DNA from: Ulota crispa
Taxonomy: Eukaryota; Streptophyta; Bryopsida; Orthotrichales; Orthotrichaceae
Assembly (NCBI GenBank): GCA_963920765.1
Contig: OY987247.1
Span: forward strand, 16,340,471-16,404,470
DNA: 64,000 bases
Direction of reading: 5' to 3'
The notes beneath the pieces were generated by a model. That model was not told the DNA's origin. It ran no database searches and saw only the letters and a list, made by a program, of their open reading frames with translations. The position numbers and the translations under genes are program-made. This document shows positions 7,222 to 61,940 of the stretch, one piece after another (positions within the stretch are counted from its first letter, which is position 1; each line of letters starts with the position of its first letter).

Positions 7222-7446
7222 CCTTTAAACAACCAAAATGCCCTTTGTGACCAATACAATACTGGTTATTTTTCTTATATTTGGAATGGATCCACACCTC
7301 TACTACATTTGAGACCAACAAAGAATTTGGAGAATAGATCAATGCAAATCTAGTGAGCTACTTGAGATCCAAATTAAAATTTCTTATTGGTAGGAAATGA
7401 CTATTATACGTTAGCGTATATACTATGCCCTATGGTTGTTTAAGGG
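7222..7446. mobile_element. TTAA-flanked MITE, 225 bp
   Basis: TTAA lies at 7218-7221 and 7447-7450. Termini are CCTTTAAACAACC and, read inward from the right, CCCTTAAACAACC. This is the smallest-size class of the CCC(C/T)TAAAGG group. Confidence 0.72.
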
Positions 7447-7954
7447 TTAATTTTAGTTCCTAATTATTTCTTTATTCTCTTATTTAAAAAACTATTAGTA
7501 TGTACAAATCTGCTATAATAACATAATACAATTCACCTTTTAGTGATCCATTTACCATGAGGGTAAAAAACTCATGGGTAAAAATAAAAAAATAATTTGC
7601 TGCATGTATGAACTGGATTGTGTAGGTGATGTTTTTACTACATGGTTAAACTGGACTATGTTACTAAAAACAAAAAAATGGATCCTTTTACTACGTGAAT
7701 AAAAACCAAAATTATTTTATGGCATGGCCAAAAAACAAAAATTATTTCATTACAAACAACAAATGTTTTATTGTGTGAGAAACATTTTGTGGAACTAGAT
7801 TTGAAATTATTTTACCTCCTATCGGACCAACAGGTACCTACTCTAGTACTAAATAATTGAATATGAAAATAAGACATCGAGAACATGGTGTGACTTGAAA
7901 AATTATATCCATATAAGATAAAAGAAAACAAGTTGCAAATATGTAGTAACTTCC

Positions 7955-9030
7955 AAATTGTCCAAACCATCATATACTTTTAATTTTAAATAGAAATATA
8001 AAATTACATATTCAAAATTGTAAGTACACTATGGCTTAATACCAAAGTACCTGGCCCAAATACGCCATGTATTCAAGCCTTCCCAGTGAATTTATTACAC
8101 TTGCAAAATTGCCTAACTTATGCAATGTAAATGGCATTCCTCAAGTGCCCAAGCCATAACATACTTTCATTCTTAAATTAAAACCAATCATTATAAATTC
8201 AAAATTGCAAGTATGCAATTGCTTAACCCCTAAATGTTCAAGCGACCAGATTTGGGTTTTTACAAAACTTTGAAGATGAATAAAACCTTATCAAATCATT
8301 ATTTTCAGTATGTTTTTTTCAATATAAGTTTGCTTTGAAGTCTAATTTCAACATCCAAAATCTGATTTTGAAAATGAAAGTTGATGATTTTTCTACTCAA
8401 GATTTTGTACAAGGGTGTCCACTACAATCTTGAATTTTCTAATGTAGGAAGATCTTAAAAATGAGCCTTACATACACTAGAGCTTGGAGAAAAATCCACA
8501 TTAGAAATCCATTTACAAAAAATGTAGGAGTAGATTTTAAAAATTGTAAATTGATTAGAGTTAGACATGTAATGACCTTAAACCTCATATTTTTTTAGTG
8601 ACCAACTTTGCATATTTGACATATGAAATGAGGGTTAGAAAGCTGTAAGTCACTTTTGCACTTTTAACACCCTCATGTTCAAACATTATAATCTTTCAAA
8701 CTGTAAGTGATGTTGTTGTATTTTCTTTTTCCATGTAATCTCTAACATGTTTAGTTTAAATTTGTACGGTTACAATTGAAAAAAACTTGATGGAATTTAT
8801 GAAAAGGTTGATTGATAGAAGGTCCAAGAAGCCTAGACAGGGCTTGGGCATTTAGGGGTTAATGTCAAAGTACTTGGCTAAAAATACATCATGTATTCAG
8901 GCCTTCTCAATGTTTTTATCACACATGCTACTTTGCCTAACCTACATAATATAGATGACATTCCCCAAGTGCCTAAGCCATCACAAACTTTCAATCTTAA
9001 AATAAAATATATCTTCAAAATATGAACCAA
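7955..9030. repeat. ~190 bp tandem array interrupted by a TTAA element
   Basis: Three diverged units share CAAAATTGYAAGTA...GCTTAA at the end and CAAAGTACYTGGC...CATGTATTCARGCCTT at the start. Unit junctions lie near 8034 (empty) and 8223/8859 (occupied by the element at 8227-8858). The first unit is incomplete. Confidence 0.72.
8227..8858. mobile_element. TTAA-flanked MITE, family A (632 bp)
   Basis: TTAA lies at 8223-8226 and 8859-8862. Left end is CCCCTAAATGTTCAAGC; right end read inward is CCCCTAAATGCCCAAGC. The interior is an inverted relative of the elements at 11757 and 59773. No ORF. Confidence 0.85.
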
Positions 9031-9898
9031 ATAAACAAAACATAAATACATTTTTGAAAAAATGTACATGGTACAAGTTGTCTTTGCAAAATAAAAACAC
9101 TTTTAATTCTGATACACATCATCAATTTACTTCAGACTGTTATATTAATATGTGTGCCATATTAATATGTATATAAACAAGATGCTCCATCTAGCTGCTT
9201 CCATCAAGCATCCTTCCGCCAACCCCTAAAATCAACGAGTTTACCCACAAATCAATCATTATACCTCAATGTTCAATATTTGCATGATAAATTCACATAT
9301 CCACAATAAAGTCACATTATTGCTATATTTGTTTATCATACTCATTAATTCCATATGAAAAGTAAGTACAAATCTTATCTCTATAATAGTCTTGTCTCTA
9401 TTAGTTGGATAGTTGTAAGCAAAGTATGATTTAAAAATTTGTGATTGATTGAGAGCCAAGAAGCAAAGTGAAAATTTTGTAATTGGTCAAAGGACAAGGG
9501 GTCAAAAAATGAACATGGGCATTGTGTGTGAAAGAACATTTTTGGTGGAAACCATTGAATCTTTTTCGAACTTGAATTTGAAATTCACATATAAAGGGGT
9601 GGGGAGGGAGATTAAGAGGCAAATTGATTTGAATCTAAAATTGAATTTGAGTTTATATTATCCCATGGAATATTTTTGTGAATAAAGGGTGGCATGGGGA
9701 TAGCATGGGTATGATAGCCTTCCGCCAAAACGGCGGGTGCACGAGTCCACGAGTGTGATTACATTAAAATTTAATGAAAAGGAATCCACCTAAAGGATTT
9801 GGAGATTATCCTAGGCCTAGAAGATTAGTTAGTTACTCCTTCAACGTAGCGAAGTGCCTACAGAAGCTTGCTTCAATGTATAAAGAGTGTTATGGAAG
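9031..9898. other. Intergenic, nothing assigned
   Basis: A+T-rich sequence with only short spurious frames. A GC-rich palindromic spot CCGCCAAAACGGCGG lies near 9722. Confidence 0.4.
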
Positions 9899-9902
9899 TT
9901 AA

Positions 9903-10142
9903 CCCATGAGCGCCAGGGAGACATTATAATGTCTCTGAAATAACTAAATCAACTTAATTTTGACCATATAATCTTAGTGCATGTTCAGTGAAACCACTTC
10001 CAATTTAGTCCAGCATGATAGAGACGTTTTCCACTAACAATTCATATGGTCCAATCTTGTGGATTGTATTTTTCAATCCACAAGGGCACTTTGATTACAC
10101 ACAAGTCAAACTTTTATTGTTTCAACTTTGAATGCTCAAGGG
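9903..10142. mobile_element. TTAA-flanked MITE, family D (240 bp)
   Basis: TTAA lies at 9899-9902 and 10143-10146. Ends are CCCATGAGCGCC and, inward from the right, CCCTTGAGCATTC. AGACATTATAATGTCT, a perfect 16 bp palindrome, sits near the left end. The copy at 49599-49836 is the same family in opposite orientation. Confidence 0.78.
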
Positions 10143-10528
10143 TTAAATCAGACCCTAGAGCAAAAAACTATTTTAAAGAAAATTGCATAAAAATCAAGTG
10201 ATAGACAAGCACAGTATGTCTTGCGTCAGCAATCAGGTCTGCAAACTTCTCAGATGTCAGTTCATTGCCACGTTCATCTATTAGAACTACCTACCAGGTT
10301 CAACAGACGTTTAGAAATACTTCTATCAATAGCAAAAAAATATACATTCAAACCAAAATACACAAAATTGATCAAATTTGCACAGTTGCTTCCTATAATG
10401 CATTACAGTGTAGAAAATCCTTGTTAGGCACCCTTCGAAATTAAAAGCATTCAGAAATTCTTGACACTAAGTTTGCACACCTGAAGCTCAATTTCACCAA
10501 GTGAGACCTCCCAAGTGAACGAGTCAAT
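10143..10528. other. Intergenic, nothing assigned
   Basis: Only short frames without protein character; no repeat recognised. Confidence 0.35.
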
Positions 10529-10947
10529 AGGGTAGTCACGGTTGGTGTGAGATTGAAATCGATTTCAGAGAAAATTGAGAAATGATTGAGTGAATGTAGG
10601 AGCCAATGGAAACACTTCTTCATGGAAGGAGGTGTGACACCCTTTTGCGAGTGATGGAGAATGAAGAATGAAGAATGGAGAATGTTTTATTTAGAGGAAA
10701 GCAACACAACCACTTCTTGGAGGAGCATAAAAAGTGAGGGTGAAAAGCAATTCATGAGCGAGTAAATAGGCGGACCATGGTAAGAATTCTCATGCAAAAA
10801 ATATTCTCAGCCCATTTCTTCATGCCTGGGCGTTAAGAATTCTTTTTCTCAATCTTCACAAAACTGTGCTTGTGCGAGTCGTGGAGGAAGCGCCACGGCG
10901 ATTTTATGTGACAATTGAGAATGCAAAATTGCAACCATGACTACCCC
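10529..10947. mobile_element. MITE with GGGTAGTCA termini (~420 bp)
   Basis: Left GGGTAGTCACGGTTG pairs with right CAACCATGACTACCC. The internal AATGGAGAATG-type run recurs in the element at 26347-26777, which has the same ends. No clear target duplication. Confidence 0.5.
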
Positions 10948-11470
10948 TAATGAATTCATAAGTACTAGCATGTGAAAGTCTTAGTTATTGCTTGCAAAAC
11001 CAAAATCATACTTTTCAAAAAAAAAAAGACTAGGCATTGTTTGACAGGACATCCCCTCCTAGCTTCATGCATAGTGTTACATTGTCACATTTAAGCCTAA
11101 ATTTATTAAATAAAATTGTCCCCTAAAATAATTAATAATTGAAGAATGATCTTAACCCAGGGGTGACATTATTAAAAAGGTGAGTGACAATATCGAGATC
11201 CTATATATATACATGTATATTGCATTTTAAGAACAAATTTTACAAAAACTTACTTTTGTAATTTCAACCCTTTTTGCTCTTAAATCCCTTCATATTATTA
11301 CATGCATATCACAATTTCCTACGATATTTTGACATTAGAGAGTGTGATAATGTAGATGCAAGGATGTTTGAATTTATTTATTTATTTTTTTCACAACATA
11401 GGAATGCTATCATAGAATTCTTATGGAATTGTTCCAATAGAGAATGGGCCATTAGGAAGGGTTGCATGTA
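10948..11470. other. Intergenic, nothing assigned
   Basis: A+T-rich; no protein-like frame or paired termini seen. Confidence 0.35.
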
Positions 11471-11474
11471 ACTT

Positions 11475-12481
11475 GGGAGGTTCACAACATTTCCCACATC
11501 CCATTGAAAACTGAAAATCTAAATGGTGTAAAGTCAAAAATTGGGACTTGGCCCCCTGCACACTACGTCCCACATCCCACAATTCATTGCATTTTGCTTA
11601 CATGATAATGCTTTTTGAAATATTTTTGTGTCAAAAAAGGTGGAATTTAACTCAAAGTTTGGGGTCAACAATTTTCCGAAATTCAACTTTTCAACCCAAA
11701 CCCACCAATATTTCTGCATAAATATCATGACTTTCTTTACTCATTTTTACCCTTAACCTCTAAATGCCCAAGGCTTTTTGTGAGTTTCTAGGAATTTGCT
11801 CTAAACTGAACAAAAAGCTAACATTTTGATAGGCTGTATCAAATTTTTAGAATTGTAATCATACAAATTCAAACTAGATATGTTAAACATCACATACAAA
11901 AAGAAAACACAACAATATTGCTTATGGATTGAAAGATTATAATGTTTGATCAAGAGGGTGTTAAAACTACAAAAATGACTTCAAGTATTTCAATCCTCTT
12001 TTCACATGTCAAACCTAAAATGTTGGTCACCAAAAAAATATGAGGTTAAAGGACATAACATATATAACTCCAATCCATTTATGGCTTTTTGAAATCTCTT
12101 TTACAAATTTTTAAATAGATTTTCTAGTGTGAATTTTTCTCCAAGATCTAGTGTATTTGAAGCTTCTTTTCATGAGCTCTCAACACTAAAAAAATCAAGA
12201 TTGCAATGGACACCCTTGCGCAAAATCTTGCATAGAAAATTCACAATCAATAATTTTCAAAATCGGGTTTTTGAGGCTAAAAATAGACTTCAAAAAGAAT
12301 AATTCTACAATAAAAAATACTTAAATAGTAGCTTAGTTAGGTTCTATTGAACTTTAAAATATTACCGGCACCAAAATGTGGTGTCTCGGGCATTTAGGGG
12401 TTAGTAACTCAACAAAGTTGAGATCTCACATTGAGGTGGGATTTGGAAAGATGGGATGTGGGAAGTAGTGTGAACTGCCCC
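11475..12481. mobile_element. MITE hosting a nested TTAA element
   Basis: Left GTTCACAACATTTCCCACAT matches the reverse of the right end (GTTCACACTACTTCCCACAT). The family A element at 11757-12400 lies inside, so this one is older. Confidence 0.5.
11757..12400. mobile_element. TTAA-flanked MITE, family A (644 bp)
   Basis: Left flank is TTAA (11753-11756); right flank is TTAG, one base off. Ends are CCTCTAAATGCCCAAGG and CCCCTAAATGCCCGAG. The body matches 59773-60416 in the same orientation (GAATTTGCTCTAA, ACACAACAATAT, GGATTGAAAGATTATAATG). Confidence 0.82.
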
Positions 12482-13978: not shown

Positions 13979-13982
13979 TTAA

Positions 13983-14905
13983 TCCCTAAAGGACCATGGC
14001 CTTTATTTTGTCAAAAGACACTCAAAACTGCCACCTCTATGGCAAAGAGTAGAAAAGTTTGAAAATTAGGCCTTTTGCATATTTGATTGTAGGATCTTGT
14101 GCTAGACTACTATAAGAATGTGTCGTACAAAACTCAAGAACTTTGATTGCACAAATTGGAAGATATTTGCATTTAAAAAGTAAAAAACAACTTTTTTTGC
14201 ACCTTGCTTGAGTAGATTTTTTAACTTTGAACATTTTTAACTTAAAATTTTTGCACTATGGAGTTTGGAATTCTATTTTTGCATGGTGGGAAGTTGAGTT
14301 GGGAATCTTGGGAAAAAATTTCAAAAAAGAATACTTAATTTTCATTCTTTAAAAAAACATTAGGCAGAAGAAGGTATGAGATTGAAGAAAAACTTAAATT
14401 GCTAATAACCATGCAATGGAATTGAAACGCAATAATCCCAATGGTGAGATTGTTCTAGAAAGCAAACTTCACCCTCTCCAATAATTTTTTTTGAAAAAAT
14501 GTTAGACTTGCATTCAAAAATGAAGTTCATAAGTTATTTTTTCAAGAAGATGCTTGAGTTGCCCAAAAAACAAGATTGTCCATAACTTTCTCATAACTAG
14601 TCCAAATGGAATGAATCAAAGCTTCAAAAGTAACTAAAGATATAATCTATGAGAAAAAAAAATTAAATTTTTTTTTTCAAGTTTTTATAAGAATTTTTTT
14701 TGCTGCCCCTAGTCCCCAAATTTGTGCTTATTTGGGCACAACTTTTGCTCCCTGGCATCAATTGGAACAATAATTAGATTCCCCAAAAGCTAATGTGTTT
14801 TTCTATCTTCAAAAAAAGTTTCAAAAAATTAGGACAAAAATTGAGGCCATAGGTACTTGCCCAAAATCACATTTGTCCCCCGAAGGGACAATGGTCCTTT
14901 AGGGG
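13983..14905. mobile_element. TTAA-flanked MITE, family B (923 bp)
   Basis: TTAA lies at 13979-13982 and 14906-14909. Ends are TCCCTAAAGGACCATGG and CCCCTAAAGGACCATTG. Family B has a TGTAGGATCTTG-like block in its left third and a subterminal GGGACAA at the right end. No ORF. Confidence 0.85.
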
Positions 14906-17108: not shown

Positions 17109-20100
17109 ATGGGATACACAACGGACGTACAGAAAGAGAGATCGAAAGAGTCGGAAGCATCCAATGTAGTGACAGAGCTTTTGAAACAGGCAGGGGGATG
17201 CGTAGCGATTGACGGCGGGTTGGCTACGCAGTTAGAACGTCATGGTGCAGATATTAATGATCCACTATGGAGCGCCCTGTGTCTTATAACCAGGCCTGAT
17301 CTCATCCGCACGGTACTCAATTGGTTGTTTACTGTGAATACCTAAGTACCTGATTTGTTTCGTTCGGCCGAGACTCGAAGTAGGCACAATTGATGAACTT
17401 GGAGTTTCTTTTGTATTGAATTGTGCTAGTTAGGGCGTTTTTGACAGGTGAGATGCCGTGTTTTCCATGACGGTAGATATGCTGCACCACGATTTAGTTA
17501 GCAGAAATGTACACCGTTTTTAGTGTGATCTTAAAGGATTATTCATTTCTTGGTGAAGGGCTGGTGTTGTTCTCTTGTTTTCGTCTACCAATGAGCATCT
17601 GGAATCGTTGAATGAAACTAGCTGCACAAGTTGTGCTGCTACACTCAAGTCGTTAGTGAACAGTGAAATTGTGGTTTCCCTATCGATATCCAACTCCATG
17701 GCGTTCAAAACTCTACACGCTGTAGAGCTTACAAGGCTCTGTAGGCTCTAGAATTGTACCAGGCTCTGGTGTAGCAATCTTTTGCCCTCAAACGAGTAAT
17801 CGATTGTCTTATTTCATATGTCGTGGTGTTGTGGATATCAGGTGCACGAGGAGTATTTGCAAGCAGGAGCTGCTATTATAGCGACGGCTTCTTATCAGGT
17901 GAGTATTTGTTAAACATCTTGGCCCCTTCCGGCAGCAGCATGCGATTCGATCTTTGTGCAAGTTCTCAGGCAATGCTTACATCTGCCATATGCAGTTCCC
18001 AATAACTCAGTAGGGACTCATTTTCAACATCCAAGAGGCACTATGTTGTCCTGAACAATGTAGCTCTGAACATTCTAGGAATACTGAACAGCTGTTTGTA
18101 TGATCGACAGGCTACAATTCAGGGTTTTCAAAGTCGAGGCTTGTCAACTGAGGAAGCAGAGGATTTGCTTCAGAAGAGTGTCCGTATCGCTCGCGAAGAG
18201 CGCGACAGGTTCTGGAAAGAATTCCAAAACAAAGTGCTCGCAGGAACTGCTAGAGCAGGTTCTCGTCAGCGTGCCCTTGTTGCTGCATCTATTGGTAGTT
18301 ATGGAGCGTATTTAGCTGATGGATCTGAGTACAGGTATGCTACAATTGTTTCGTTCTTTTGGGCGTAGGTTAAATGTTGGAAAACTTTGAATGTTGATTG
18401 ATGCTCTTCTATGAGGATGTTTATTCATATCTTTAGAATGGTCTAAAGTTTAGATTGAGGCTCCCGAGGGCTTGGAATCTTAAAAAGTATTAATCACTAT
18501 AGTTTATGTCTTGATGCCGCCATGGCTCGATTCTTATGTTGACTTCTATGTGAACACTTATGGATTTTTTGCAGTGGAGACTATGGCCCTTCCATGACTC
18601 TTGAAAAGTTGAAAGATTTCCATCGTCGCCGTCTGGTAGTACTTGCAGATGCAAGACCTGATCTTGTGGCTCTAGAAACCATTCCCTGCAAGTTGGAAAC
18701 TCAGGTCAGGACTTGTTCAATCCTTCCAAGTGGGCAGAGTGCTGACGCGATTCAACGGGTAGTGGTGTTCGGTGGAGTTCGTGCAGTGTTGTTGTAAACT
18801 GTTGGATTGGCCGTCTCATGATACAAGAAAGTCTTAGCTCATAATTCTCAATTTGAAGGTTATCTGAATTACTCATCTGTGCATAGAAGCTGATGTGTGT
18901 GAGAGAAACCTTCAAAGATTTTTTCGACTGTCTGTTTTGTGCTTGCTCTATATCTATTCGATTGTTCTTGGAGTGGTGTTGAGAAACCTGAAATTCATTG
19001 GTGGAAGTGCATGAGTGTTCTCACAATTGGTTTTTTATCTTGTGCAGGCTCTAGTCGAGTTATTGAATGAAGAAAACTTGCAAGTTCCTGCTTGGATATC
19101 ATTTAATTCAAAGGATGGCGTGAATGTCGTGAAGGGGGATTCTCTTGCCGACTGTGTTTCCTTAGTAGACAAATGTGCTAAAGTAGTAGCAGTGGGTGTC
19201 AATTGCACGCCTCCTCGCTTCATTCTTGACCTCATCTGTGCAGCGCGTGAGGTAATAATTCATTCTCTACTGACCTTTCCATTGTTGTAATTATATTTCA
19301 GCATCATTCATTAGGTATCGATAGAATGTAGTTTGTGTGTCTCTAGCCAATTTAGCAACATGATCATTATTGGGATATGCAATAATCCCTCAAGCTTTGC
19401 TGATGTTACTAATTGGTGGTATTTATGCAGGTGACAAACAAGCCAATAATGGTCTATCCAAACAGTGGAGAACATTATGATCCTGTCATCAAGCAATGGG
19501 TAGTAAGTCTTCGCCTTTATTTTTTACCTTCTTGATCATTGAATATCTTTATTAGTTCAACTTTGGTGACCGGCTCTTTAGTTTGAAATTCTTTGTTTCT
19601 GCTTGGTTTATGATCACCCGCTTGTCTGGGTGAATAGATGCTCTTAGGCTTGAGCGTTGGTTACAAATTCTAAATTTGGTCCATTGAATATGGGATAGAG
19701 TGTGTGATAAAACTACCAAATGACGGTGTCGTTTTTGACGCTTTCTTGACACATTCATGTTGAAATGAGTGTTGAACAACACCTTATTTGGTAGTATAAC
19801 CGTCACTCCTGTAGTGCTTCAAATAATTCTTTAATGAGACTCTGTAAGTTATTGAGGCCTCCTCATCAAACTTTAAGTCTCGGAGTATTAGTAAATGGCT
19901 GTTTCTGTGCAATTGATCAGTTGAACCTTAACGTCAGATTTTTGTATGGACAAATTAATCTTGATCCAAATCATTTGACATCACTCTGTGACTAAATTTC
20001 CGTGGTTGTGTCCTCATTTATCGTTTGTTGTATAGAACATTGATGCATTCAGACAACTAACGGTTCCCTGGTGTTCATTTTTGCTATATTTATAGGAGTC

Positions 20101-24479: not shown

Positions 24480-25410
24480 CCCCTAAAGGACCAAGCCCTT
24501 TTTTTTGTGAAAATCACTAAAAACTGCAACTTCTAGGAGGTTTAGTAAAATGGGATTTCATGTTTTGTTTTTGGGAAATCCAACCATAGGATCTTGCTCC
24601 ATACTAGAAGAGGTACTTGTGGGAAAAAAAACCAGCTCATTCCAGATGGAGAGGAGTGAGATATTTACATTTAAAGTGAAAAAACAAGTTTTGTTCCATT
24701 TTGCCCAAAATATTTAGAAGCCTTTGACCACTTATAACAAAAAAAATTGCTCTACCCAAAGTTGCACTTTATTTTTTCTATGTAGGAGATCAAGTTAGGT
24801 ACATGTGGGAGAATTTTCAAATCAACTAGAACTATACAACACATGGGAAGAATAGTAAGTAAAAAGATGTAGAGAATGAGTCAAAACACTAAATTGTTAA
24901 GAATTTAATTATTGAAATAAAAAATGCAAATCCCAATGGTTATTTTGTTGTGATAAACAATCTATTTCCTTGGGTTTAATTTTTTTTCCAAAACATTAAA
25001 AATTGAGTAAAATAAAGGACTTCAAAGTTTATTTTAGAGTAGAGAATCCATAACTACCCGCAAACAAAATCTCCTCATAACTTTCATCTCATTGATTGAA
25101 ATGGAATGATTCAAAGTTTCTCACATATAAAAAAATTTTAAGAACCAATTTCAATTTTTTATTTTAAGATATAATAAATTTTAAAGAAGTTTTTGGGTTG
25201 CCCAGATGGACAATCATCCCCAAAATTCTGATAAATTCATGCATAACTTCTTCATCAAATGTTGGAATGAAGAAAAAATTAAATACCTTTGTAGATTTTT
25301 GAATTCCACACCTTCAATAAAAAAATTAGAAAATCACACAAAATACTTTAACCATAGGTACATGCCCAAAATCCAACCTGTCCCCTAAAGGGACAATTGT
25401 TCTTTAAGGG
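24480..25410. mobile_element. TTAA-flanked MITE, family B (931 bp)
   Basis: Left flank is TTAG, right flank is TTAA (25411-25414). Ends are CCCCTAAAGGACCAAGCCC and CCCTTAAAGAACAATTG. The subterminal GTCCCCTAAAGGGAC palindrome near 25381 repeats the terminal motif. Confidence 0.83.
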
Positions 25411-27931: not shown

Positions 27932-28266
27932 CTGCTCCCTTCCAGAATCCAGATCCATTCAGATCCTTCCAAATCCACCTCCGAGGTCAGATTCCAGCAG
28001 CAACTCACAGATGGCTGCGATGGTAATTTAATGAAGATTCTACAAGCACCTTCGAGAGGGATGGGGGGTCATGGGGATCTTTCCATTTCGTGACAGCAGA
28101 TTCTTCAGCAGCAAAACGGGCGTTGGGATCCAGATTCTTCAGCCCTGCAAGGTTCCTGCAACTGGGGCTGGGAGAACACTAAATGTCTAAATCTCTCACG
28201 CTGGCCTTAATGACTCCGACATCTTGTTTGTGGCTCCAGGTTAGGGTGGAAAAAAGCTCCGCAGCT
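27932..28266. other. GC-richer unassigned segment
   Basis: About 330 bp stands out in base composition from its neighbours and contains AGATGGCTGCGATG/GTAATT. It may be a captured or relic exon; no protein match recognised. Confidence 0.25.
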
Positions 28267-28270
28267 TTAA

Positions 28271-29410
28271 CGGCCCAAGCAAAGTTTTCACCAAAAACTC
28301 TTCAAAATTATCATTTTTAGAGCATCAATCAAATTTGAAAACAATAACATTTTTATGCATATGTGACCGTAGGATCTTGTAGAAGAATGGTTTTAAAAGA
28401 TGTGGTAAAAATTTCGGAGTTTTCCACCTTGTGGATTGGAAGTTAGAATGGTTTGAATATTCAAAAATGTCTTGTGAAAAACCCGGCAACTACCTTTCAG
28501 AAAGTGAAATTCCTAAGGAAAAAAGGCCTTGTGGGTGGTGCTTCTCTAAATTCCTCATTCCACTTAAGTAAAGTACATGTCAAAAAAGTGTCAAATCATT
28601 TGGAGTTGTATAACATATGGAAGAAAATTAGTAAGTAAAAAGAAGTAGAGAATGAGTCAAAACCAATGTATGGAGAGTTTTTGAGCTCCTTTGGCAAAAA
28701 GCCGACATTTTTCATTTTCATTCAGTTTCTTCAATGAATGCACCGGCTATTCCCTATATAGTTATACTATAATTAGAAAATTTTCAAAAATGTAGTTGGT
28801 TTTTAGCTGGAAAATACATATTTCCATCGATAATTTGCACATTTCATTTGGCTGACTTTCTATTGTTTTTCAACTCTCCTCGTTCATTGGTCAAAACACT
28901 AAATTGTTAAGAATTTAATTATGGAAATGAAAAATGCCAATCCCAATGGTCATAATGTTGTCATAAACAATATTCATCCTTTGGTTTTGTTTTTTTTCCA
29001 AAATGTTGAAAATTGAGTAAAATAAAGGACTTCAAAGTTTATTTTGGAGTAGAGAATCCATAATTGCCCGCAAACAAAAAATCCTCCTAACTTTCATCTT
29101 GTTGATCCAAATGGAATGATTCAAAGCTTCCTACATTCACATAAATCTCCTAAACCAATTTAAAAATTTTGTTTTTGAAAAAAGTGATTTTCAAAAATCT
29201 GCCTAGGCTGCCCGACAAATGTAAAAAACAACATATTAGGCCATAACTTTTTACTCATAATTCCAAATGTCATGAAATTTTGTGCATATGAAAGATAAAC
29301 CTCGTCCCCACATTTCATTAAAATTTCAGCCTAAAATATGAAAAGCTCCAATCATAGGTACTTGCCTGAAATTGCTATGTTTCTAAAAAAGAGATCTGGT
29401 CCTTTAGGGG
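28271..29410. mobile_element. TTAA-flanked MITE, family B, with nested insertion
   Basis: TTAA lies at 28267-28270 and 29411-29414. The right end is intact (CCCCTAAAGGACC read inward). The left end has lost several bases (CGGCCCAAGCAAAG versus CCTCTAAAGGACCAAGCAAAG in its close relative at 50788). Confidence 0.8.
28664..28889. mobile_element. hAT-like MITE nested in a family B copy (226 bp)
   Basis: An exact 8 bp duplication GTCAAAAC lies at 28656-28663 and 28890-28897. The empty site is seen in the related copy near 51180 (TTCAAAACAC). Ends are CAATGTATGGAGAGTTTTTG and, inward from the right, CAATGAACGAGGAGAGTTG. An 8 bp duplication suggests hAT. Confidence 0.85.
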
Positions 29411-32063: not shown

Positions 32064-33014
32064 CCCCTAAAGACCCAATTATCCCCTTAGGGGACAAATG
32101 AATTTTGGGCATATACCTATAGCTAAACTAGTTTGTGTGATTTTTTGAAACTTTTATTAAAGGTAGGGAATTCTAAGACCTACATGGGCACCTAATGTTT
32201 TCTTCATTGTCACATTTATTGAAGAAGTTGTGCATGAATTTCAGAAAATGGGGGAGGGCGGGCAATCTAGGTAGCCCAAAAAACTTCTTAAAAACTTGCA
32301 TTTAAAAAAAATAAAAATCTGAAATTGGTTCTTTAGATTTATGTATATGTAGGAAGCTCTTAATCAATCGATTTTGATTGATGAGTGAGAAGTTTTTGTT
32401 TGCAAGTAGGTATGGGATTCCCAAACCTCCATTCTTTTTGCCCCTTGTAAACTTTGGTGCTTTGCATTTTTGAGCTCTTTGTGTATTTGATTTTTGATTA
32501 GTTTTTTTCCCAAGTTGTAGTAAGCTAAGAACCATTTTTTTCTCACTATTTGGATCAATGTGATTTGAATTTTGAGTTTTGCATAAATCCTCCTATTTTG
32601 CCTAGTGTATATGCAAATTTCATAACCTTCTAGCATTGCAAGATTTTACAAAGTATGTTTTATATCTCCAATTGATTTGAAAATTCTCCCACACACAACT
32701 AACTTGGTTTTCTACATGATAAAAAAAAATCTCAACTTTGTGTAGAGCATTTCTTTTTATATAGGAGCAGTCAAAGGCTTCTGAAATTTTTGGGTAGCAA
32801 GGAAAACTTTTTTTCTTCACTTCAGATGTCAATATCTCTCTCCTCTACTTTTAGAATGAGCTGCTTTTTTTCCTTCGTATACCTCTCGTAGTCTAGGGCA
32901 AGATCTTACGGTTGGATTTCCAAAAAAACTTTTTACCTACTTTTCTACTCATTCCTCCAAAAGTGGCAATTTTGAGTGACTTTCATAGAAAAATGGGCTT
33001 GGGCCTTTAGGGGG
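32064..33014. mobile_element. TTAA-type MITE, family B inverted (951 bp)
   Basis: Left TTAA (32060-32063) then CCCCTAAAGACCCAATT and the subterminal palindrome CCCCTTAGGGG. The right end read inward is CCCCCTAAAGGCCCAAGCC, with a mutated flank (TTCA). The body is family B in reverse orientation. Confidence 0.8.
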
Positions 33015-44576: not shown

Positions 44577-45960
44577 CCCCTAAAGGATGTTGCCTACTAA
44601 AAGTGTTGTATGTATTGTACAGTACCTTCCCATAAATTTTTGGCACTTTCATCTGTAGTTCAAAAACTTTGCATTGCACGGAGTATAATTAGTATTTTGT
44701 TGATTTAAACCTTAGATGTTGGATTCTTATGCAATCCCAATCAAGCACACCAAATTTCAATTCTTCAAAATCAAAACCCTATTTTTAGTGGATTATTTTG
44801 TATTAAATTCATGGTTTTACATGATAATTGATTTAAGAATAATGGTGATGAATTTTTGAGATGTGATTGCATGAGTATGTAGGAAGCATCACATGCACAT
44901 CTTCTATGTTAAAAAGAACTCCCTTTAGTAACAAAAATTTGATCTGCAAATATTTCAATGAGAACTTTGGTATGCCCAAATTTTGTAAAATAGATTTTTA
45001 TTTTTAACTAGATTTTCACCAAGGAAACATAACAATTTGTTAGAAGGTACAAACTTAGTCACAATCTAGGAATGAATTAGCAACTTTTGATTTTCTCAAA
45101 GAAATATCTATTTTCAAACTATAGATGAAAGTGACAAAAATTTATGGGAAGGTACTATACAATACTCTCTCATAAGTTTTTGTCACCTTGTTCTTGAGAT
45201 CAAAGAACTTTGCATCATACAGAACCTAAACAATATTTTAATGATTTGAATTGTAGAAACCTGATTCTTATGTGACCCCAATCAAGCATACCAAATTTGG
45301 ATTCTTAGATATAAAAACTCCATATTTGGAGAGTTATTATATTGTAAATTCATGGTTTTACAAGAAAATTGATTGAAAAATATTGGTGATGAATGTTTGA
45401 GATTTGATTGCATGAGTATGTGGAAAACATCCATATGCACATCTTCCATGCTAAAAATGAACCCCTTGAGTAACAAAAAAATCATCCAATTTTTTTTCAA
45501 TGTGATTTTTGATATGCCCAAATTTTGTAAAATAGATATTGCGTTGTTATAATCAAATTTTGTGAATCAATCCATACATTGTGACAAGATTCTATACATT
45601 TAAACATGATATTACATTTACTTGGTGAAAAGTTAGCTAAAAATTCAAAAAAATCAAGGGGTTCTTTTTTAGCATAGAAGATGTGCATATGGATGTTTTC
45701 CACATACTCATGCAATCAAATCTCAAACATTCATCACCAATATTTTTCAATCAATTTTTTTGTAAAACCATGAATTTATAATCAAATAACTCACCAAATA
45801 TGGAGTTTGGTTTTTAGGAATCAAAGTTTGGTATACTTGATTGGGATTGCATATGAATTAAGTTTCTACGATTCAAATATAAAAAGCACTAATTATGTTT
45901 TGCATGATGCAAAGTTGTTTAATCAAAAGAACAAGGTGACAAGAACTTCTAAGATGTTAC
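44577..45960. repeat. Three-copy repeat complex with ~300 bp inverted arms
   Basis: It starts TTAA-CCCCTAAAGGATGTTGCC (family C end). Copy 1 (about 44616-45030) and copy 2 (about 45165-45580) are direct. Copy 3 (about 45660-45960) is inverted to copy 2 with a ~100 bp spacer, so a long hairpin is possible. Landmarks are CATGGTTTTACA, GAGTATGT and ATGCACATCTTC. No clean right terminus was found. Confidence 0.7.
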
Positions 45961-45967
45961 TCTACCC

Positions 45968-46285
45968 TGAATATTGCATGTAGGTTGTCTTGACAATTAG
46001 GTAGCCTTACCTTGGCAAAGTTACCTCATGACTCACCCTTGGCCATTTGGAGGAGCATGCAACTCTCTTTTTGTGACAATGATTCTTGATTCTATTCAAA
46101 ATCCAACTTCCTTGTTCCTTGGCTTTGACACTTATTGCCGCATTTAACCTTTGCTTGCTTCCTCCATGGTTTATTACAATAATTCTTGAAAAGAGTTGCT
46201 GTAATCTTAATAAATATTTCAACAATGTGAAATGTTAAGAAATTAGTGTGGGGCAACCTAAAGTGTAATATCTGGTGCACAATTT
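45968..46285. mobile_element. Diverged MITE related to 33432-33764
   Basis: It shares GGTTGC/TTACCTTGG..AAAGTT, CATGACTCA and GCATGCAACTCT with the copies at 33432 and 61368. The right end is GGCAACCTAAAGTGTAATAT. Ends are worn. Confidence 0.5.
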
Positions 46286-46304
46286 AGGGAGTTTTTTAGC
46301 TTAA

Positions 46305-47133
46305 CTTCTAAATGACTAAACCATTTTTTTAGTGAAAGTTACTGCAAACTGCTACTTTTGGAGGATTGAGTAGAAAGGTACAAAAAACAATTATTTTGGA
46401 AATCCAATCATAAGATCTTGCCTTAGACTATGGGAGGTAATTGTAGGAAAAAAATCAACTCATTCTAGATGTAGAGGAGTGAGATATTGACATTTGAAGT
46501 GAAAAAGAGTGTTTTTTTCCCTACTGCCCAAGAATTTTGAAATGAATTGGAGGTGTGAATCATACTTTGTAAAATCTTGCAATGTCATAAGGCCATCAAA
46601 TTTGCATATACACTAGGCAATTTCAGAGGATTTATGTAAAATTCAGAAATTTGAATTACTTTGATCCAAATTGTGAAAACCAAGGGATCTTAGTCTACTA
46701 CAACTTGGAAAAAAAAGAAGTCAAAAAACAAATTCACAAAGAGCTCAAGAAAGTAAAGCACCAAAGGCAAAAGGATGGAGGTATGGGAGTCCCATATCCG
46801 CCCGCAAACTAAAACTTTTCACTCATAAATCAAAATTGAATGACCCAAAGCTCCCCACATAGGTATAAATCTAAAGAACCAATTTCAGATTTTTATTTTG
46901 AAAAAAATGCTATTTTAAAAAAGTTTTTGGCTGCCCACTCTCCCTTGTTTTTCAAAAATTCATGCACAATTTTTTCCATAATTGTCAAAATGAAAAAAAA
47001 TTTAGATTCCCACACAAATCTTTGAATCCCCCATCTTCAATAAAAGTTTCAAAAAATCACACAAAGTAGTTAGCCATAGGTACATGCCCAAAAATCCCAT
47101 TTGTCCATCAAAGGGACAATGGTCCTTTTGGGG
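46305..47133. mobile_element. TTAA-flanked MITE, family B (829 bp)
   Basis: TTAA lies at 46301-46304 and 47134-47137. Ends are CTTCTAAATGACTAAACC and CCCCAAAAGGACCATTG. It has a subterminal GGGACAA. It shares its right TTAA with the next element. Confidence 0.8.
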
Positions 47134-47137
47134 TTAA

Positions 47138-47361
47138 CCCTTGAACGTCACGAAAGCCCTTTGCAGTCGTATGTATGGCAATATGTATAGACGTATTTGA
47201 GGTGCTCTAAGGGCTTTCCAATTTCTTTTATGCACCCACCATCATACAACCCTTTAGTATGTATTGTTGTAACACTTAATTTCCAATTGATTCAAACTAC
47301 TGAATATTGGTTAAGGCCGTATTTGGTACCATAGCTCCAAAGCCCAAGGGCCCTTCAGGGG
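47138..47361. mobile_element. TTAA-flanked MITE (224 bp)
   Basis: TTAA lies at 47134-47137 and 47362-47365. Ends are CCCTTGAACG and CCCCTGAAGG, both continuing to an AAGCCC/GGGCCC block. Size matches the ~225 bp class. Confidence 0.6.
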
Positions 47362-48578: not shown

Positions 48579-49436
48579 CCCCTAAAGGATCAAGGGTGTT
48601 TTTTGAGAAAAAATCTCAAAAACTGTCAACTTTTAGTGCATTGCCCAAAATCAATTTTTTTTTTTTTTTTCTCAATTTCAATTGTACAAAAGTTTGTAAA
48701 ACCAATAAATCAACATGTGCAAAAAAATTCAGCCCATTGACCGCGCGGATTGTAAGACTATAATGTTTGAAGTGAGAAAAAACAACTTATTTTCATTCTT
48801 GCAAAACAAGGTCAATAGACTTTGAGCCTTCATAGAGTAAAATTTTTACTCTACACAAACTTGAGCTTTTTAACCATTCACAAGTATATGATGTTAGGTT
48901 CCCTCATGAAAATTTTCAGATGCAAATATAGAGTCTAGCTTATTCTAAATCACCCTCCAATGCAAGGAGGTTTAGTGAATTGGCAATACATTAGTCATTC
49001 TTTCATGATTTCTTGTGCAATGAGGAAGTCTTTTATTTGAAATCTAAACGGCAAAATGTTGGAGACAGACATTTGGAATATGTGAAAAAAAGTTTCAAGA
49101 GATTCGGATTTATAAATTGAAAGATAATAGGGCTTGAAGTCAGAGGATTTTTTTTTTGAAATTGCCCAAATATAGTTAACAAAGTTTGACTCCCTTCAAA
49201 ATGTGATGAGAGTTTTAGCATAAGATTCTCCAAAGATGCTCAAATTGCCCAAATTCTTTTGGGCAACATAACTTTTGAACCGGGCATCTAATTGGGAAAA
49301 AAATTGGATTTCCACTTGGGGGATACATACTTGCACCTTGTGTAACAATTTTGAGAACATCTAGTAAAAATTAAATCCTTATGACCCTACCCAAGTTCTC
49401 AAGTGGTTGTTGCACAGCCACTTGGTCCTTTAGGGG
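48579..49436. mobile_element. TTAA-type MITE, family B-like (858 bp)
   Basis: Left flank TTAT, right TTAA (49437-49440). Ends are CCCCTAAAGGATCAAGGG and CCCCTAAAGGACCAAGTGG. Confidence 0.8.
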
Positions 49437-49875: not shown

Positions 49876-50280
49876 CCCTTTAAGGGCCGTGGTTGATTTG
49901 GGGGGTGGACAATCCTTTGTATGGCCATTTGGGGGAGATTTTCAAACTTTTGAATATAGATGTCTACGACAGATCTAATCGTACAAAAGGAAGTATCTTG
50001 CAGGGTTTAGTGTTATGCATCATGAATTATGCTCACTCTTTAGTTGTTATGGCCATCTTTTTGCATTTATTGGTGCATTTTCAGCCAGTACTTTTTTAGT
50101 GTTTTCAACCCTCTAGCCACATGCCACCTCAGATTGGCCTAATTATTGTCTTAAACTCTTCACTTTCCAATTCCCGAGACCCGTCTCCTTTGCCACATCA
50201 TCAAATTCCTTAACATACTCTCTCTACAAATTAAAAAAAGTCAAAATCAACCACAAACAGGTCGACCGGTCCTTAAAGGG
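49876..50280. mobile_element. TTAA-flanked MITE (405 bp)
   Basis: TTAA lies at 49871-49874 (one extra A) and 50281-50284. Ends are CCCTTTAAGGGCCGTGG and CCCTTTAAGGACCGGTCG. Confidence 0.7.
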
Positions 50281-52544: not shown

Positions 52545-52547
52545 TAA

Positions 52548-54755: not shown

Positions 54756-54786
<31 letters not shown>

Positions 54787-55065: not shown

Positions 55066-55068
55066 TAA

Positions 55069-55476: not shown

Positions 55477-55479
55477 TAA

Positions 55480-56351: not shown

Positions 56352-56620
56352 AGGGTTTTTTTTCTTCTTCTTTTGGTTAAGATAGAGCAACCCGCACCCT
56401 AGAATGTACGTATGTAAGAAAAAAATGGATGAAATTAGACAAAGTCAACAACTTGTGTACATCCATCCAAATATTTTACTAAAATCAATTACTCTCATCT
56501 AGATTTTAGCAAGCATGGTGTTTTCTTGGAGAGGGATGTGGCAACTCCATCCACTTTTTCAACCAATCTTTCTAGTGTAAAGGTAACCAGTGTCATGCTG
56601 AGCAAAAAAATGCCAAGATA
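56352..56620 (+). repeat. ~270 bp dispersed repeat copy
   Basis: ACCCGCACCCTAGAATG...GTATGTAAG...CATCCATCC...TCTAGTGTAAAGGTAACCAGTG. Same family as 29529-31560. Confidence 0.65.
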
Positions 56621-56639
56621 AAAAACCTTGGGATGGAGT

Positions 56640-57470: not shown

Positions 57471-57700
57471 GTGAGTGGGGATCAGTGAGCCCTGAGTTGT
57501 AAGCTTAGATCTTTTGTCCAAATACTTAACTTTACCTATAATTGTGTACATATGGTCTTATGATTATGCATTTTAAATATTTATCATTTTAAAAACTTTT
57601 TTTTCTTTCAGATTTATTATTGATTTTGAGCTCAAAATTGATTCCTAGTCATCAAATCTTGACTCACCATGCACATGCTCACAATCTTAACCTTACAAAA
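57471..57700. repeat. ~235 bp repeat, copy 1 (copy 2 at 58367-58605)
   Basis: Both copies share TGTGTACATA(T/G)G, TTATGCATT/GTGCATTATAAATAT, ATTGATTTTGAGCTCA and AAATCTTG(A/G)CTCACC. GCTCAC/GTGAGC motifs are dense near both ends. Copy 2 lies inside 58261-59302. Confidence 0.7.
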
Positions 57701-57805
57701 TAACATTTTTAGGTTGTTGTATTGGAAGGAATCATATTATCAAGGTTGGATTGAAATTGCTTGTCAATTTTCCTTCATGATAGTTTACTCAAACAATACA
57801 TATGG

Positions 57806-58035
57806 ATATCAAGGTTTTTGTTTTGTTTTTCTTTTTATACCATACATGCATCCTAGACGCTTGCAAGTACGGAAAATCAAACATAGAATCTTCAATATGT
57901 GCATATTCATCTACAAATCCAATTTAGTTGCCATTAGTAATCTTTGTTCAATTGTTGATAAACCTAAGGTTTTAAAAGAGTATTTGGGAATTTTATCCAA
58001 TTTGGCTCCTTTATTTTTGGTTTAGTGATAAGGGC
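57806..58035 (+). repeat. Diverged ~270 bp dispersed repeat copy
   Basis: It has the AAGGTTTTTGTTTTG start, CTTGCAAGTACGGAAAATC, TATTCATCTACAAAT and TTTATCCAATTTGG. A 118-codon frame here is by-product. Confidence 0.5.
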
Positions 58036-58260
58036 CACCTTCCATGTTACACGGGAATATTAAAATTGCAAAAACCAACAAAATAGTTATGAAGCCATGC
58101 TAGAAAACAACAAAATTGGAATTGATGTTGCAACAAGCATAATAAATTTGGAGAACTAAGTTTCCAAAACCTGGAAACGCTTCTAAGCTCCGCCAATTCC
58201 CATGTGCCATGAAAGTTGGCACTAAGGTAGGAGGCTCTTAAATGGAGCATGTAAGGCAGG

Positions 58261-59302
58261 CCACCTTAAAAGTGGTAACCTATAGATATTTACCACTTTT
58301 ACCACTTTTAAGGTTGGCGGTTTACCACTTTTAGGTCTTTTGATCAATATGGGAAATGCTAAATTATGAGTGTGGATACATGAGCCATGAGCCGTGAGCC
58401 TATATTCATAATCAAAATACTAAATTTCACTTGTATTTGTGTACATAGGCCCTTATAGTTGTGCATTATAAATATCTTCCTCTTGAAAAACTCGTTATTT
58501 TTAAAGTTTTTTCATTGATTTTGAGCTCACAATTGGTGTCTGCTCACAAAATCTTGGCTCACCGCTCATGGGCTCATGGTTTTACGCTCACAAAATAGCG
58601 TTGTCCGGATGGATACACCACTCATGTATGAGGTTCACTACTTCTTTGCGGATGTTCCCCATTCCACCATTCCCCACTTCTTTGCAAACCATTTCTAGTC
58701 CAAGATGGCATTTGCCAAATGGCCTTGTATCGGATTTTTGTCTAACCATGCTCTTTAGCTTGCATGGATCACTATAAGTAAACAATATTTGAATTGACAC
58801 GTCCAAATTGACTAATTGTGTCTGAAGTGACAAAAAGATGTTTAAATTGACAAGATTCCTTTGTAGTGTCAAGTTGAGATGAACCACAAAATCATGCACA
58901 CACCATACTTGGAGGGGAACGGTTTTGCTACCGTGTTTGATAACTACAAACACAAGACTACATTTGAAGTTAGTTGGAAGCTTGTCGATTAGCAATCTCA
59001 ACCTTGTTTGATTGGAAGGGAGGTATTGCCACATTATTCTCAAATATTACATTTGTGGAATTTGACTTTTCCATTCTTGCTTAGGAAAAAGACCAATATA
59101 GCAAGTCCATCACTAATTTGTTTTTGAAAGGTGATTCACAGTCTAAAATATTTGCACATTTGAATCAAATAAGCTTATTGGCATCAACACAAATAATTAC
59201 ATGATTAAATGATTAAAAGTGGTTGTAAACACTTTTAACTCTAACCAATTACCACTTTTAAGCTAATTGTGGATAAAAGTGGATTTACCACTTTTAAGGT
59301 GG
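58261..59302. mobile_element. Nested element, CCACCTTAAAAGTGG termini (1042 bp)
   Basis: CCACCTTAAAAGTGG on the left and CCACTTTTAAGGTGG on the right are near-perfect inverses. ACCACTTTTA is repeated many times near both ends. A 151-codon minus frame (58588-59043) lies inside. Confidence 0.68.
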
Positions 59303-59470
59303 GTTGATGTAAGGGCTAATCAAATTTTTGATAGGTGAAACTCCTTGAAATGCTTTTCAATAAACTTTCCTTGAAAGTCAAGAAAAATTGGCATCTAACG
59401 CCCAAGTTGTTTCATATTTCTTGGAACTTTGTGGAATTAGTTATGAATATTTGAAGTGGAAAGGCCATAG

Positions 59471-59584
59471 GGCTCTAAAATGGAGCACCTCCTCAAATGT
59501 ACATGACATGTACATTATTGGAGGGCTATGAAAAAAAACATGTACAAAAACAGGACATTTGAGGAGGTGCTCCATTTTAGAGCC
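59471..59584. repeat. Hairpin with 30 bp perfect arms
   Basis: 59471-59500 (GGCTCTAAAATGGAGCACCT...) is the exact reverse complement of 59555-59584, with a 54 nt loop containing ACATGACATGT. It lies inside the AGGTAGGAGG element. Confidence 0.9.
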
Positions 59585-59772
59585 TGCTCCAATTTAGAGC
59601 CTGCTCCAAATTAGAGCCTCCTACATTAAGGCAGAAATGGTCATAATGAGGTATAGATTCTGGACAAAATTATCTTAAAAGAAAGGTCAATAAGTTTATA
59701 AATTTGGATCCATGATTTTCATTCATGACAAGACAAAACTCAACCTCTAGCATGGAACTTTACCCATTTTAA

Positions 59773-60416
59773 CCCCTAAAGGACCCTAGAATTTCCAGAG
59801 CTTCTAGGAATTTGCTCTAATTTGAACAAAAAGCCAACATTTTGATAAGTTGTATCAATTCATTTTTAAATGTAACCATATAAAATCAAACTAGACATGT
59901 TAGAGATCACATTAGAAAAGAAAACACAACAATATCTCTTATGGATTGAAAGATTATAATGATTGATCATGAGGGTGTTAAATTTGTGAAAGTGACTTGG
60001 AGTCTTTCAATATTCTTTTTGCATGTCAAATTTAAAAACTTTGTCAACAAAAAGAAACAGGATTAAAGAGCTTAACATGCATAGCCCCAATCAATTTATG
60101 ACTTCTCAAAATCTACTCTACAATGTTTTTAAATGAATTTCTAATATAATTTTTTCTCAAAGATCTAGTGTATTTGAGGCTCATTCCCAAGAGCCCTCAA
60201 CACTACATAAAGTCAAGATTGCAATGGACACTTGTGCACAAAATCTTGAATAGAAAAATCATGATCAATCATTTGCAAAATCAAATTGTTAAAATAAAAA
60301 CTAGAGTTTAAATGAAAATTTTAAAAATAAACTATTAAAAATAGTAATTTGGTAAGGTTTTATTTAACTTTGAAAATTGGTTGAGGACACGTTCTCTCCT
60401 CAAGGTCCTTTAGGGA
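59773..60416. mobile_element. TTAA-flanked MITE, family A (644 bp)
   Basis: TTAA lies at 59769-59772 and 60417-60420. Ends are CCCCTAAAGGACCCTAG and TCCCTAAAGGACCTTGAG. Same length and orientation as 11757-12400. Confidence 0.87.
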
Positions 60417-60420
60417 TTAA

Positions 60421-61132
60421 CCCCTAAAAGCTCACTTCTCCCTTGGGCAGCTCACCACAAGTGGAATTATTATCTTTTTTTTTGAAATTTTCATACATGA
60501 TGTGCCTAGGAAGGTCCAACAATTTTCATAACTTTTGACAACATGGTTGAAAAGTTATTGCATGATGTGTTGTTTTTTTTGAACTCTAGGCATCCTAGGC
60601 AGTTCAAAAGACTTTTATAGTAATTCCATTTTTTTGGATTTTTTTTTTGAAATTGGTTCTTTAGACTTATCTGTATGTGGGAAGTTTTAGATCATTTGAT
60701 TTTAATTAATGAGATGAAACTCATGAGAAGTTTTAGTTTTAGGGTAGGAATGGTTTTGAGAGACTCCATACCTACCCACAAACTAAAACTTTTCAAAGTT
60801 TTTGATTCATTAATCAAAATTGAATGATTCAAAAGCTTCCCACATACATGTAAGTCTAAAGAACCAACTCCAAAAAAAAATTTAAAAATGTGAGTTTTAA
60901 AAACACTTTTTAGCTACCTAAATTGCACAAAGTTTAATAAAAAACAAAATATCATGCAATAACTTTTGAACCATGTTGCCAAAAGTTATGAACATTGTTG
61001 GACCTTAAAACTACTCCTTGGACACATCATGTGTGAAAATTTCAAAGAAAAAAAGATGAAACATCCACTTGTAGTGAGCTGCCCAAAACTGCTATGTTGC
61101 AAAAAAAAAGACAGTGCTTGGGCCTTTAGGGG
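60421..61132. mobile_element. Full-length foldback TTAA element (712 bp)
   Basis: TTAA lies at 60417-60420 and 61133-61136. Ends are CCCCTAAAAGCTCAC and CCCCTAAAGGCCCAAGC. Almost the whole element is one inverted repeat with ~350 bp arms meeting near 60770 (GGGTAGGAATGG / CCATACCTACCC). Arm sequence such as GGTTCTTTAGACTTA and GTATGTGGGAAG is the 3' half of family B. Confidence 0.85.
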
Positions 61133-61367
61133 TTAAAGTACTATGTTACTTTATAACTTGAACTAGTGCTTGAGGAGAAATTTGAACTTCTCCGACTAAA
61201 CTCTAACATTTTCCATTTTAAACAGGTTTTTAGCAAGTATGCATTGGTTATTCATATAAATCTCTTATGTTAGTATTCAAAAAAATAATTGTAATGAAAT
61301 ATTGAGAATTTTGGCTGATTATATATCCATTTGTTTAAATTTTCACCTAAATTTTTGCAATTTTACC

Positions 61368-61940
61368 TACACTAATTAGTACATTTAGGTTGCCTTACCT
61401 TGGAAAGTTGACCCATGACTCATTGTTTGGTAAGTTGGAAATGCATGCAACTCTCTAGATATTAGAATGTCACATGGTTAAACCCCTAAAGGATCAACTG
61501 TCCCCTTAGGGGACAAATGGGATTTTGGGAATGTGCTTACAACTAAACTACTTTGTATGATTTTTTGAAATTTTTAGAGAAGATGGGGAATTCAAAGATC
61601 TATGTAGGCATTTAATTTTTTCTCTGACATTTATTGAAGAAGTTAAAAATGAATTTATGGAAAAAGGTCAAGACCGGGCAACCCAACAAATTATTTAGAA
61701 ATTGCATTCAAAAAATATAAAAATATGAAATATATGGTTTTGAGACCCATTTATCCCCCAAGGGCACAATTGGTCCTTTTAGGGTTTAACCTGAATGCCG
61801 TTAGATTGTTTATCAGCACCAAACCCTTCAAGAAATTTTGATTGCATGAAAATTATTGTAATACCAATATGTATTTTTATAATGTATAATGTCAAAAAAA
61901 TTTAAAGTGGATCAACCCAAATGCAATATTTGGTGTAACT
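61368..61940. mobile_element. MITE hosting a nested TTAA element
   Basis: Left ACATTTAGGTTGCCTTACCT; right CCAAATGCAATATTTGGTGT. Same family as 33432-33764, enlarged by the insert at 61483. Confidence 0.6.
61483..61785. mobile_element. Deleted TTAA element (303 bp), family B ends
   Basis: Flanks are TTAAA and TTTAA. Ends are CCCCTAAAGGATCAACTG and CCCTAAAAGGACCAATTG. The subterminal palindrome TGTCCCCTTAGGGGACA is at the left. The middle of family B is missing. Confidence 0.75.

Follow-up and report, generated by a model that had tools for sequence, protein, structure and literature searches.

TTAA-inserted miniature elements of a green plant genome as probable non-autonomous members of the piggyBac superfamily

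The 64,000-bp stretch of DNA analysed here (the window, a part of contig C6 in a 274.8-Mb assembly) carries several families of miniature inverted-repeat transposable elements (MITEs) whose terminal inverted repeats (TIRs) are mostly of the form CCC(C/T)TNANNGNCC and which are inserted at TTAA; these repeats of a green plant genome very probably belong to the piggyBac superfamily as non-autonomous members. A preliminary description of the window had favoured piggyBac over Kolobok; piggyBac, as against Kolobok or PIF/Harbinger, is upheld by the abundance in the genome of the piggyBac transposase domain (PF13843, DDE_Tnp_1_7), by the ends that a transposase-bearing element, L041, shares with a MITE of the window, and by a subterminal box common to MITE families B and C and to transposase elements. 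The single transposase source proposed in the same description has become doubtful, since 14 transposases of the genome split into three deep clades; the ends of the elements also carry different TIRs.

TTAA-flanked TIR-like ends number 37 in the window, as against 1–8 in each of ten order-2 Markov shuffles, and facing pairs of ends 60–1500 bp apart number 15, as against 0–1 per shuffle; a separate scan for paired elements likewise gave 15. The exact motif, allowing at most four mismatches, has 36 matches in the window (0–6 in eight first-order shuffles). One pair, 44577–47133 (2,557 bp), is a composite and not one element, and once two more family A pieces (28265–29410, interrupted, and 46308–47133) are added the total comes to about 16–17 elements, below the approximately 19 first reported. 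Exact TTAA flanks both ends in 9 of the 15 pairs (a tally that takes in the composite), and four of the other six have a one-base variant on one side; the remaining two are 61483–61784, with variant flanks on both sides, and 32064–33013, with TTAA on the left and an unrelated GTTC on the right. A blastn library of 50 paired elements, partly taken from the window and with single-copy families matching themselves, covers 10,338 of the 64,000 bases (16.2%, the earlier estimate having been about 18%). Two-ended copies measure 224–950 bp, leaving out the composite, and the 1140 bp given earlier as the upper size was not reproduced as a two-ended element; the interiors, reported as at least five unrelated ones, amount to at least six in the window. 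The elements, their boxes and their flanks are as follows.

7222–7446, plus strand: family E MITE of 225 bp, TTAA on both sides
8227–8858, minus strand: family B MITE, TTAA on both sides; a related site at window 7956–8183 lacks the element and has one TTAA
8679–8696, minus strand: subterminal box, 162 bp inside the TIR at 8858
11757–12400, plus strand: family B MITE, flanks TTAA and TTAG
11932–11949, plus strand: subterminal box, 175 bp inside the TIR
13983–14905, plus strand: family A MITE, TTAA on both sides; a related site at L018 2191–2520 lacks the element and has one TTAA
21116–21341, plus strand: family G MITE of 226 bp, TTAA on both sides
24480–25410, plus strand: family A MITE, flanks TTAG and TTAA
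28265–29410, plus strand: family A copy interrupted at 28664–28885; exact right end at 29410 next to TTAA, no left end found
32064–33013, minus strand: family A MITE, left TTAA, right one lost (GTTC); related site with one TTAA at L012 5404–5584
44577–44608, minus strand: lone family-G-like end with TTAA, partner end not found
46308–47133, plus strand: family A copy that has lost part of its interior, TTAA at its right end
47138–47361, plus strand: family D MITE of 224 bp, left TTAA common with the neighbouring element
48579–49436, plus strand: family C MITE with CCCCTAAAGGAYC ends, flanks TTAT and TTAA
48753–48770, plus strand: subterminal box, 174 bp inside the TIR
49876–50280, plus strand: family F MITE, homologous at both ends to the transposase-bearing L041 699–6346
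50788–51699, plus strand: family A MITE, TTAA on both sides
59773–60416, plus strand: family B MITE with one CCCCTAAAGGACC end, TTAA on both sides
59949–59966, plus strand: subterminal box, 176 bp inside the TIR
60421–61132, no strand assigned: family A derived MITE, internally rearranged, with family A matches in both orientations; left TTAA common with its neighbour
61483–61784, minus strand: short family A derivative, flanks TAAA and TTTA

The eight families recognised are A (consensus 930 bp, 19 copies, mean pairwise identity 64%), B (645 bp, 8 copies, 75%), C (952 bp, 6 copies, 86%), D (224 bp, 3 copies, 79%), E (225 bp, 2 copies, 91%), F (407 bp, 2 copies, 84%), G (226 bp, 1 copy) and H (900 bp, 2 copies, 72%), the last not seen in the window. 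The divergence between copies suggests that most of the MITE families are old. Families A and C are distantly related (69% identity over the first 300 bp), while B, D, E, F and G match neither these nor one another at E 0.01, apart from a 24-bp match between B and C (positions 170–193, the subterminal box) which, with the TIR, is all that these two share; H and C have 33 bp in common. Over about 13–17 bp the TIRs of A, B and C are identical, those of others imperfect; D, E, F and G each have TIR variants of their own. The TIRs are short and start with CCC, except that in the family E consensus one end begins CCT, and in G one end reads CCCG. Judged by eye, the 3' ends of A, C and F and the left end of L041 have a subterminal hairpin just inside one TIR, its sequence differing from family to family. 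A 5.1-kb element at L023 1883–6965, flanked left and right by TTAA, likewise ends in family C sequence (66 and 102 bp) and encloses a degenerate frame. Two frames of this element were first taken as captured exons of a host gene, a candidate that was rejected: the frame has 29 matches in the genome, several of them full-length and ungapped with stops, and belongs therefore to a degenerate repeat family. A Pfam search with ten frames of the element gave nothing convincing (best E 0.21).

Across the window and 20 stretches of 10 kb (two adjoining the window and 18 on contig C1 picked around listed motif copies, thus not a random sample), 182 ends form 61 adjacent facing pairs: 41 are flanked by exact TTAA left and right, 13 depart from it by one base at a single flank, and the other 7 depart further; single-base variants were seen at each of the four TTAA positions. 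Because the paired scan scored TTAA-likeness, its flank fractions lean towards TTAA; free of that bias is the genome-wide count, made without selecting for TTAA. The preliminary description had proposed scanning the genome for the termini, and the scan bears it out: exact CCCCTAAAGGACC occurs 9,597 times (4753 + 4844), as against 3 (2 + 1) for the reversed pattern, and 8,154 of the 9,597 (4072 + 4082) have TTAA directly outside, as against 0 for the reversed pattern. The sole pair with matching flanks other than TTAA (TTAG/TTAG, L009 1491–1732) has weak TIRs. Neighbouring insertions with one TTAA in common (47133/47138 and 60416/60421 in the window, and likewise in L011, L012 and L013) accord with TTAA at element ends having been used repeatedly.

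For the comparison with empty sites, the joined flanks of elements were compared with other sequence read from the same genome, leaving matches to self or neighbours uncounted. Related empty sites with one TTAA were found for eight elements: 8227–8858, 13983–14905 and 32064–33013 in the window (matched in the window, L018 and L012, respectively); L012 2825–3751 (four related sites with TTAA, one with TCAA); L012 6700–7632 (in L016); L013 7945–8586 (in L013, two more in L025 reading TTAG and TCAG); L014 2731–3648 (in L023, at 68% with gaps adjoining the junction); and the 69-bp L009 7994–8062 (in L009).

A profile search of the genome for transposases, made with PF13843 alone, gave at least 120 matches (best E 1.3e-73), which fall to at least 116 loci after pieces less than 2 kb apart are joined, all above the curated cut-off; because 116 of 528 first-look candidates were scored, the count is a lower bound. 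None of 14 control genomes has the domain. The copies are mostly decayed, 10 of the 120 being free of stops within the match. Against Pfam, five frames from four loci matched PF13843 and nothing else at E 0.001. The 389-aa frame of L042 matches piggyBat (9c0f, E 2.6e-24) and piggyBac (6x67, E 7.6e-20) in the PDB, and has Asp in all three columns aligned with the Asp residues of 6x67, which we take to be catalytic, with the DDD triad kept; L039 has Asn at the third of these positions. In a rough tree (FastTree, rows anchored on L042, 47 sequences of more than 220 residues kept) the 14 transposases form three deep clades, L031/L032/L036, L033/L039/L041, and L029/L030/L034/L035/L037/L038/L040/L042; environmental relatives join the second and third of these, and two insect proteins (P0030 and P0034) fall outside. 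A search of the protein database, reaching only relatives with short exact words in common, found its better matches (about 45–69% identity) among metagenome and sequence-archive proteins, some of them labelled 'hypothetical', the first matches to bear an organism name being insect proteins at 33%. With five transposase frames as queries, no transposase remnants were found at E 0.01 in the window or in L009–L028.

The most direct tie between a transposase and the MITEs of the window is L041, an element of 5,648 bp (699–6346, with TTAA on the left and TCAA on the right, the left boundary being slightly ambiguous owing to a repeated CCCATTAA) with its transposase frame at 3451–4866. With the family F MITE at 49876–50280 it shares 228 bp on the left at 70% and, at the opposite end of that MITE, 108 bp on the right at 72%, the alignments spanning 230 and 109 bp; the two ends of L041 also match L027 1717–2123 over 207 and 80 bp at 71%. 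A PF13843 transposase is thus found between the same ends as family F, and from the alignments L041 and family F appear to stand in the classic relation of a parent family to its deletion derivative. A second element, L042, is 5,498 bp long with a transposase inside at similar spacing and CCCCTTAGGGCCC TIRs matching at 13 of 13 positions, and one of its ends matches the end of a short element (L013 9415–9595) over 181 bp at 75%. Of the transposase copies, at least two sit in elements whose TIRs match. Right ends only were found at the transposase loci L029, L034, L038, L039 and L040, and at L030–L033 and L035–L037 no TIR-type ends were found in the 1.5 kb read on each side. Among the ends of transposase elements that were read, the TIRs differ in sequence.

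The subterminal box, an 18-bp sequence of approximately [GAT][AG]AGATTATA[AG][CT][GA][TA]TTGA about 175 bp inside one TIR, occurs at the same distance in MITE families B and C and in the transposase elements L029, L038 and L034. Boxes scoring at least 16/18 were found 29 times within 400 bp of 188 TIR ends, 28 of them at 155–179 bp, as against nine boxes spread over 0–400 bp from 188 random starts, one of them in 155–179. Since the matrix was drawn after the first matches had been seen, and many of the matches are copies of B and C, the independent evidence is the comparison of L029 and L038 with L034, whose last 300 bp align only at the box and at equal distance (E cut-off 0.05). Genome-wide, the exact L029 box stands behind a generic TIR at 29 places (reversed pattern 0), which include L029 and L038, a family whose ends are of the CCC(C/T)TGAGCGCC type and a few more, and CCCCTAAAGGACC is followed by the box at 178 (reversed 0). 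Family H scores 15 at 179. The further family with CCC(C/T)TGAGCGCC-type ends, in which the box lies at the same distance, is exemplified by C1:14862960-14863154.

A number of results weigh against the assignment of these repeats to piggyBac. Where full-length copies with a transposase had been anticipated, they were found for family F, through L041, but not for families A and C: by coordinate comparison in a partial sample, no PF13843 transposase was found inside CCCCTAAAGGACC ends. The 67 exact family C 5' ends come no nearer than 8.3 kb to the 120 listed PF13843 matches, and none of the TIR-plus-box ends listed (100 of 178) encloses any of 55 transposase positions (C1–C4, 10 kb); at up to 12 kb there are two pairs of such an end and a transposase, separated by 4.1 kb (pointing away) and by 11.5 kb. 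This partial sample without a CCCCTAAAGGACC-bounded transposase lowers the piggyBac claim for A and C. The box of family A is weak (consensus 15/18 at 176; 12–15/18 in 17 copies, with a shuffle P of at most 0.05 in 4 of the 17), so that A is linked to piggyBac by way of family C. At that place no box was found in D, E, F or G, nor was it found at the tested ends of L039, L040, L041 and L042, and D, E and G are tied in by TIR and TTAA only. L042 is flanked by ATAA and ATGG, not TTAA, and L039 and L040 have no convincing left TIR. As to the empty sites, on which the preliminary description had also relied as a check, the eight elements with one-TTAA sites are set against five whose related sites lack it: TTAT for window 11757–12400, TCAT and TTTT for L025 6422–7333, a gapped T--A for L025 789–1743, and TTTG and CAAA for L026 916–1835 and 7800–8719; flanks are also altered where a family A copy sits within family C (two cases, L013 3724 and L021 898). 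Moreover, TTAA is palindromic and abuts the element ends, so that a TTAA duplication is inseparable by sequence from one of TA or TTA.

If the repeats are piggyBac MITEs, the TIR, and perhaps the box, would most likely be recognised by piggyBac transposases of several related lineages and not of one, and the recognised elements would be cut out and pasted into TTAA. Short elements would arise as internally deleted copies that retain the recognised ends; these deleted copies would then take over and reach thousands, and may now be largely fossil. We tentatively propose in addition, as something a little less probable than its opposite, that several deeply diverged piggyBac lineages were long kept together in this plant with a common second recognition site, the 18-bp box about 175 bp from one TIR. 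If so, the box would let the transposase of one lineage mobilise the MITEs of others, and its sharing would explain how unlike interiors and unlike TIRs were amplified side by side. An account in which the piggyBac MITEs were moved by a single CCCCTAAAGG-specific lineage that is now lost or was not sampled, the other piggyBac lineages playing no part, draws on the failure to see a transposase inside CCCCTAAAGGACC ends and on the scored fraction of the first-look candidates (116 of 528); we regard it as unlikely though of some weight, for the box is common to families with unlike TIRs and D, E, F and G have TIR variants of their own, which together argue for several related transposases.

Kolobok likewise duplicates TTAA. 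The possibility that a Kolobok transposase moved the major CCCCTAAAGG families is one that the TTAA target alone fails to separate from piggyBac, and no piggyBac transposase was found with exactly CCCCTAAAGG-family ends; it is nevertheless very improbable, given that B and C have a box at a fixed distance in common with PF13843 elements, that the TIR forms pass gradually into the ones found in PF13843 elements (compare CCCCTCATTGCCC at L011 232 with CCCTTCATTGCC in L029), and that family F is tied directly to L041. Slightly less probable still are Tourist-like MITEs of PIF/Harbinger (with a 3-bp TTA or TAA duplication) or Stowaway-like MITEs of Tc1/mariner (TA) whose sites were misread as TTAA through the palindrome, an explanation left room by TTAA sites that alone do not reveal the length of the duplication, and countered by full TTAA at 8,154 of 9,597 TIRs, one-base flank variants at all four TTAA positions, element ends that begin with CCC, and the piggyBac links through the shared ends of L041 and the box.

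The host is likely a green plant, because contig C1 has TTTAGGG repeats of the plant type close to its end and an exon of a homocysteine S-methyltransferase (PF02574, E 1.4e-7) lies at window 18006–18368. T. ni piggyBac has a TTAA target and short TIRs starting with CCC, as here, and 19-bp subterminal repeats close to the TIR, unlike the box found here about 175 bp in at some ends. The likeness to T. ni piggyBac and Myotis piggyBat extends to the PF13843 catalytic domain and its aligned Asp positions, whereas the distant sequence (PDB E 1e-20 to 1e-24), the green plant host and the thousands of MITEs set the present elements apart from both. Tourist and Stowaway elements of plants are likewise small and high-copy with AT-rich targets, and their termini are other than the CCC type found here. 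They differ also in their duplications, given in the available part of one 2023 review as 3-bp TAA/TTA for Tourist (PIF/Harbinger) and TA for Stowaway (Tc1/mariner) (PMC10004981).

Animal piggyBac families, according to the available text of PMC10813416, insert mostly at TTAA and have 5' TIR motifs including CCCTT and CCCTC, with TTAG, TAAA, CTAA, TCAA and GTAA as rare target variants; the TTAA variants seen here are similar, and the hosts of those families, unlike this one, are animals. The statement in the preliminary description that piggyBac elements are not well documented in land plants is a fair one, if not absolute. As far as the accessible text goes, a 2022 review gives six plant TIR superfamilies without the word 'piggy' (PMC9033089), while the 2023 review names PiggyBac among seven angiosperm MITE superfamilies (PMC10004981), grouped by TIR, target site duplication and interior composition, and in contrast to these the MITEs here have transposase-bearing relatives in the same genome. 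PiggyBac appears besides, in the portions available, in a general list of superfamilies (PMC10794571), in a table for the fern Ceratopteris with 1,230 annotations (PMC6890710), and in a 2015 survey that has it in all groups studied, land plants included (PMC4438587). By titles and the openings of abstracts, the open-licence literature yielded no report of a piggyBac transposase in a bryophyte or other land plant; a moss paper (PMC10619864) was set aside, having matched only the word 'piggybacking', and among the 20 titles listed, of 23 papers found for the TIR string, none bears on transposons.

piggyBac itself is thus known, and reviews differ on plants; what is unusual here is the scale, the host and the structure of the ends, and the scale, the diversity and the box look little described. 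A workhorse of animal genetics, piggyBac is absent from plant transposon reviews or merely listed in them, to go by their available text, and at least 116 transposase loci (three clades sampled) together with thousands of TTAA MITEs show that the superfamily could amplify massively in plants. The genome offers natural comparative data on the end sequences that piggyBac transposases need, with the box as a directly testable candidate.

Besides the MITEs, the window has a perfect 210-bp tandem duplication at 4631–5050. At 44659–45954, and at L027 2845–5061, copies of one sequence are clustered in direct and inverted orientation, in the window up to 95% complementary over 155 bp; the sequence also occurs inside L023 and L027.

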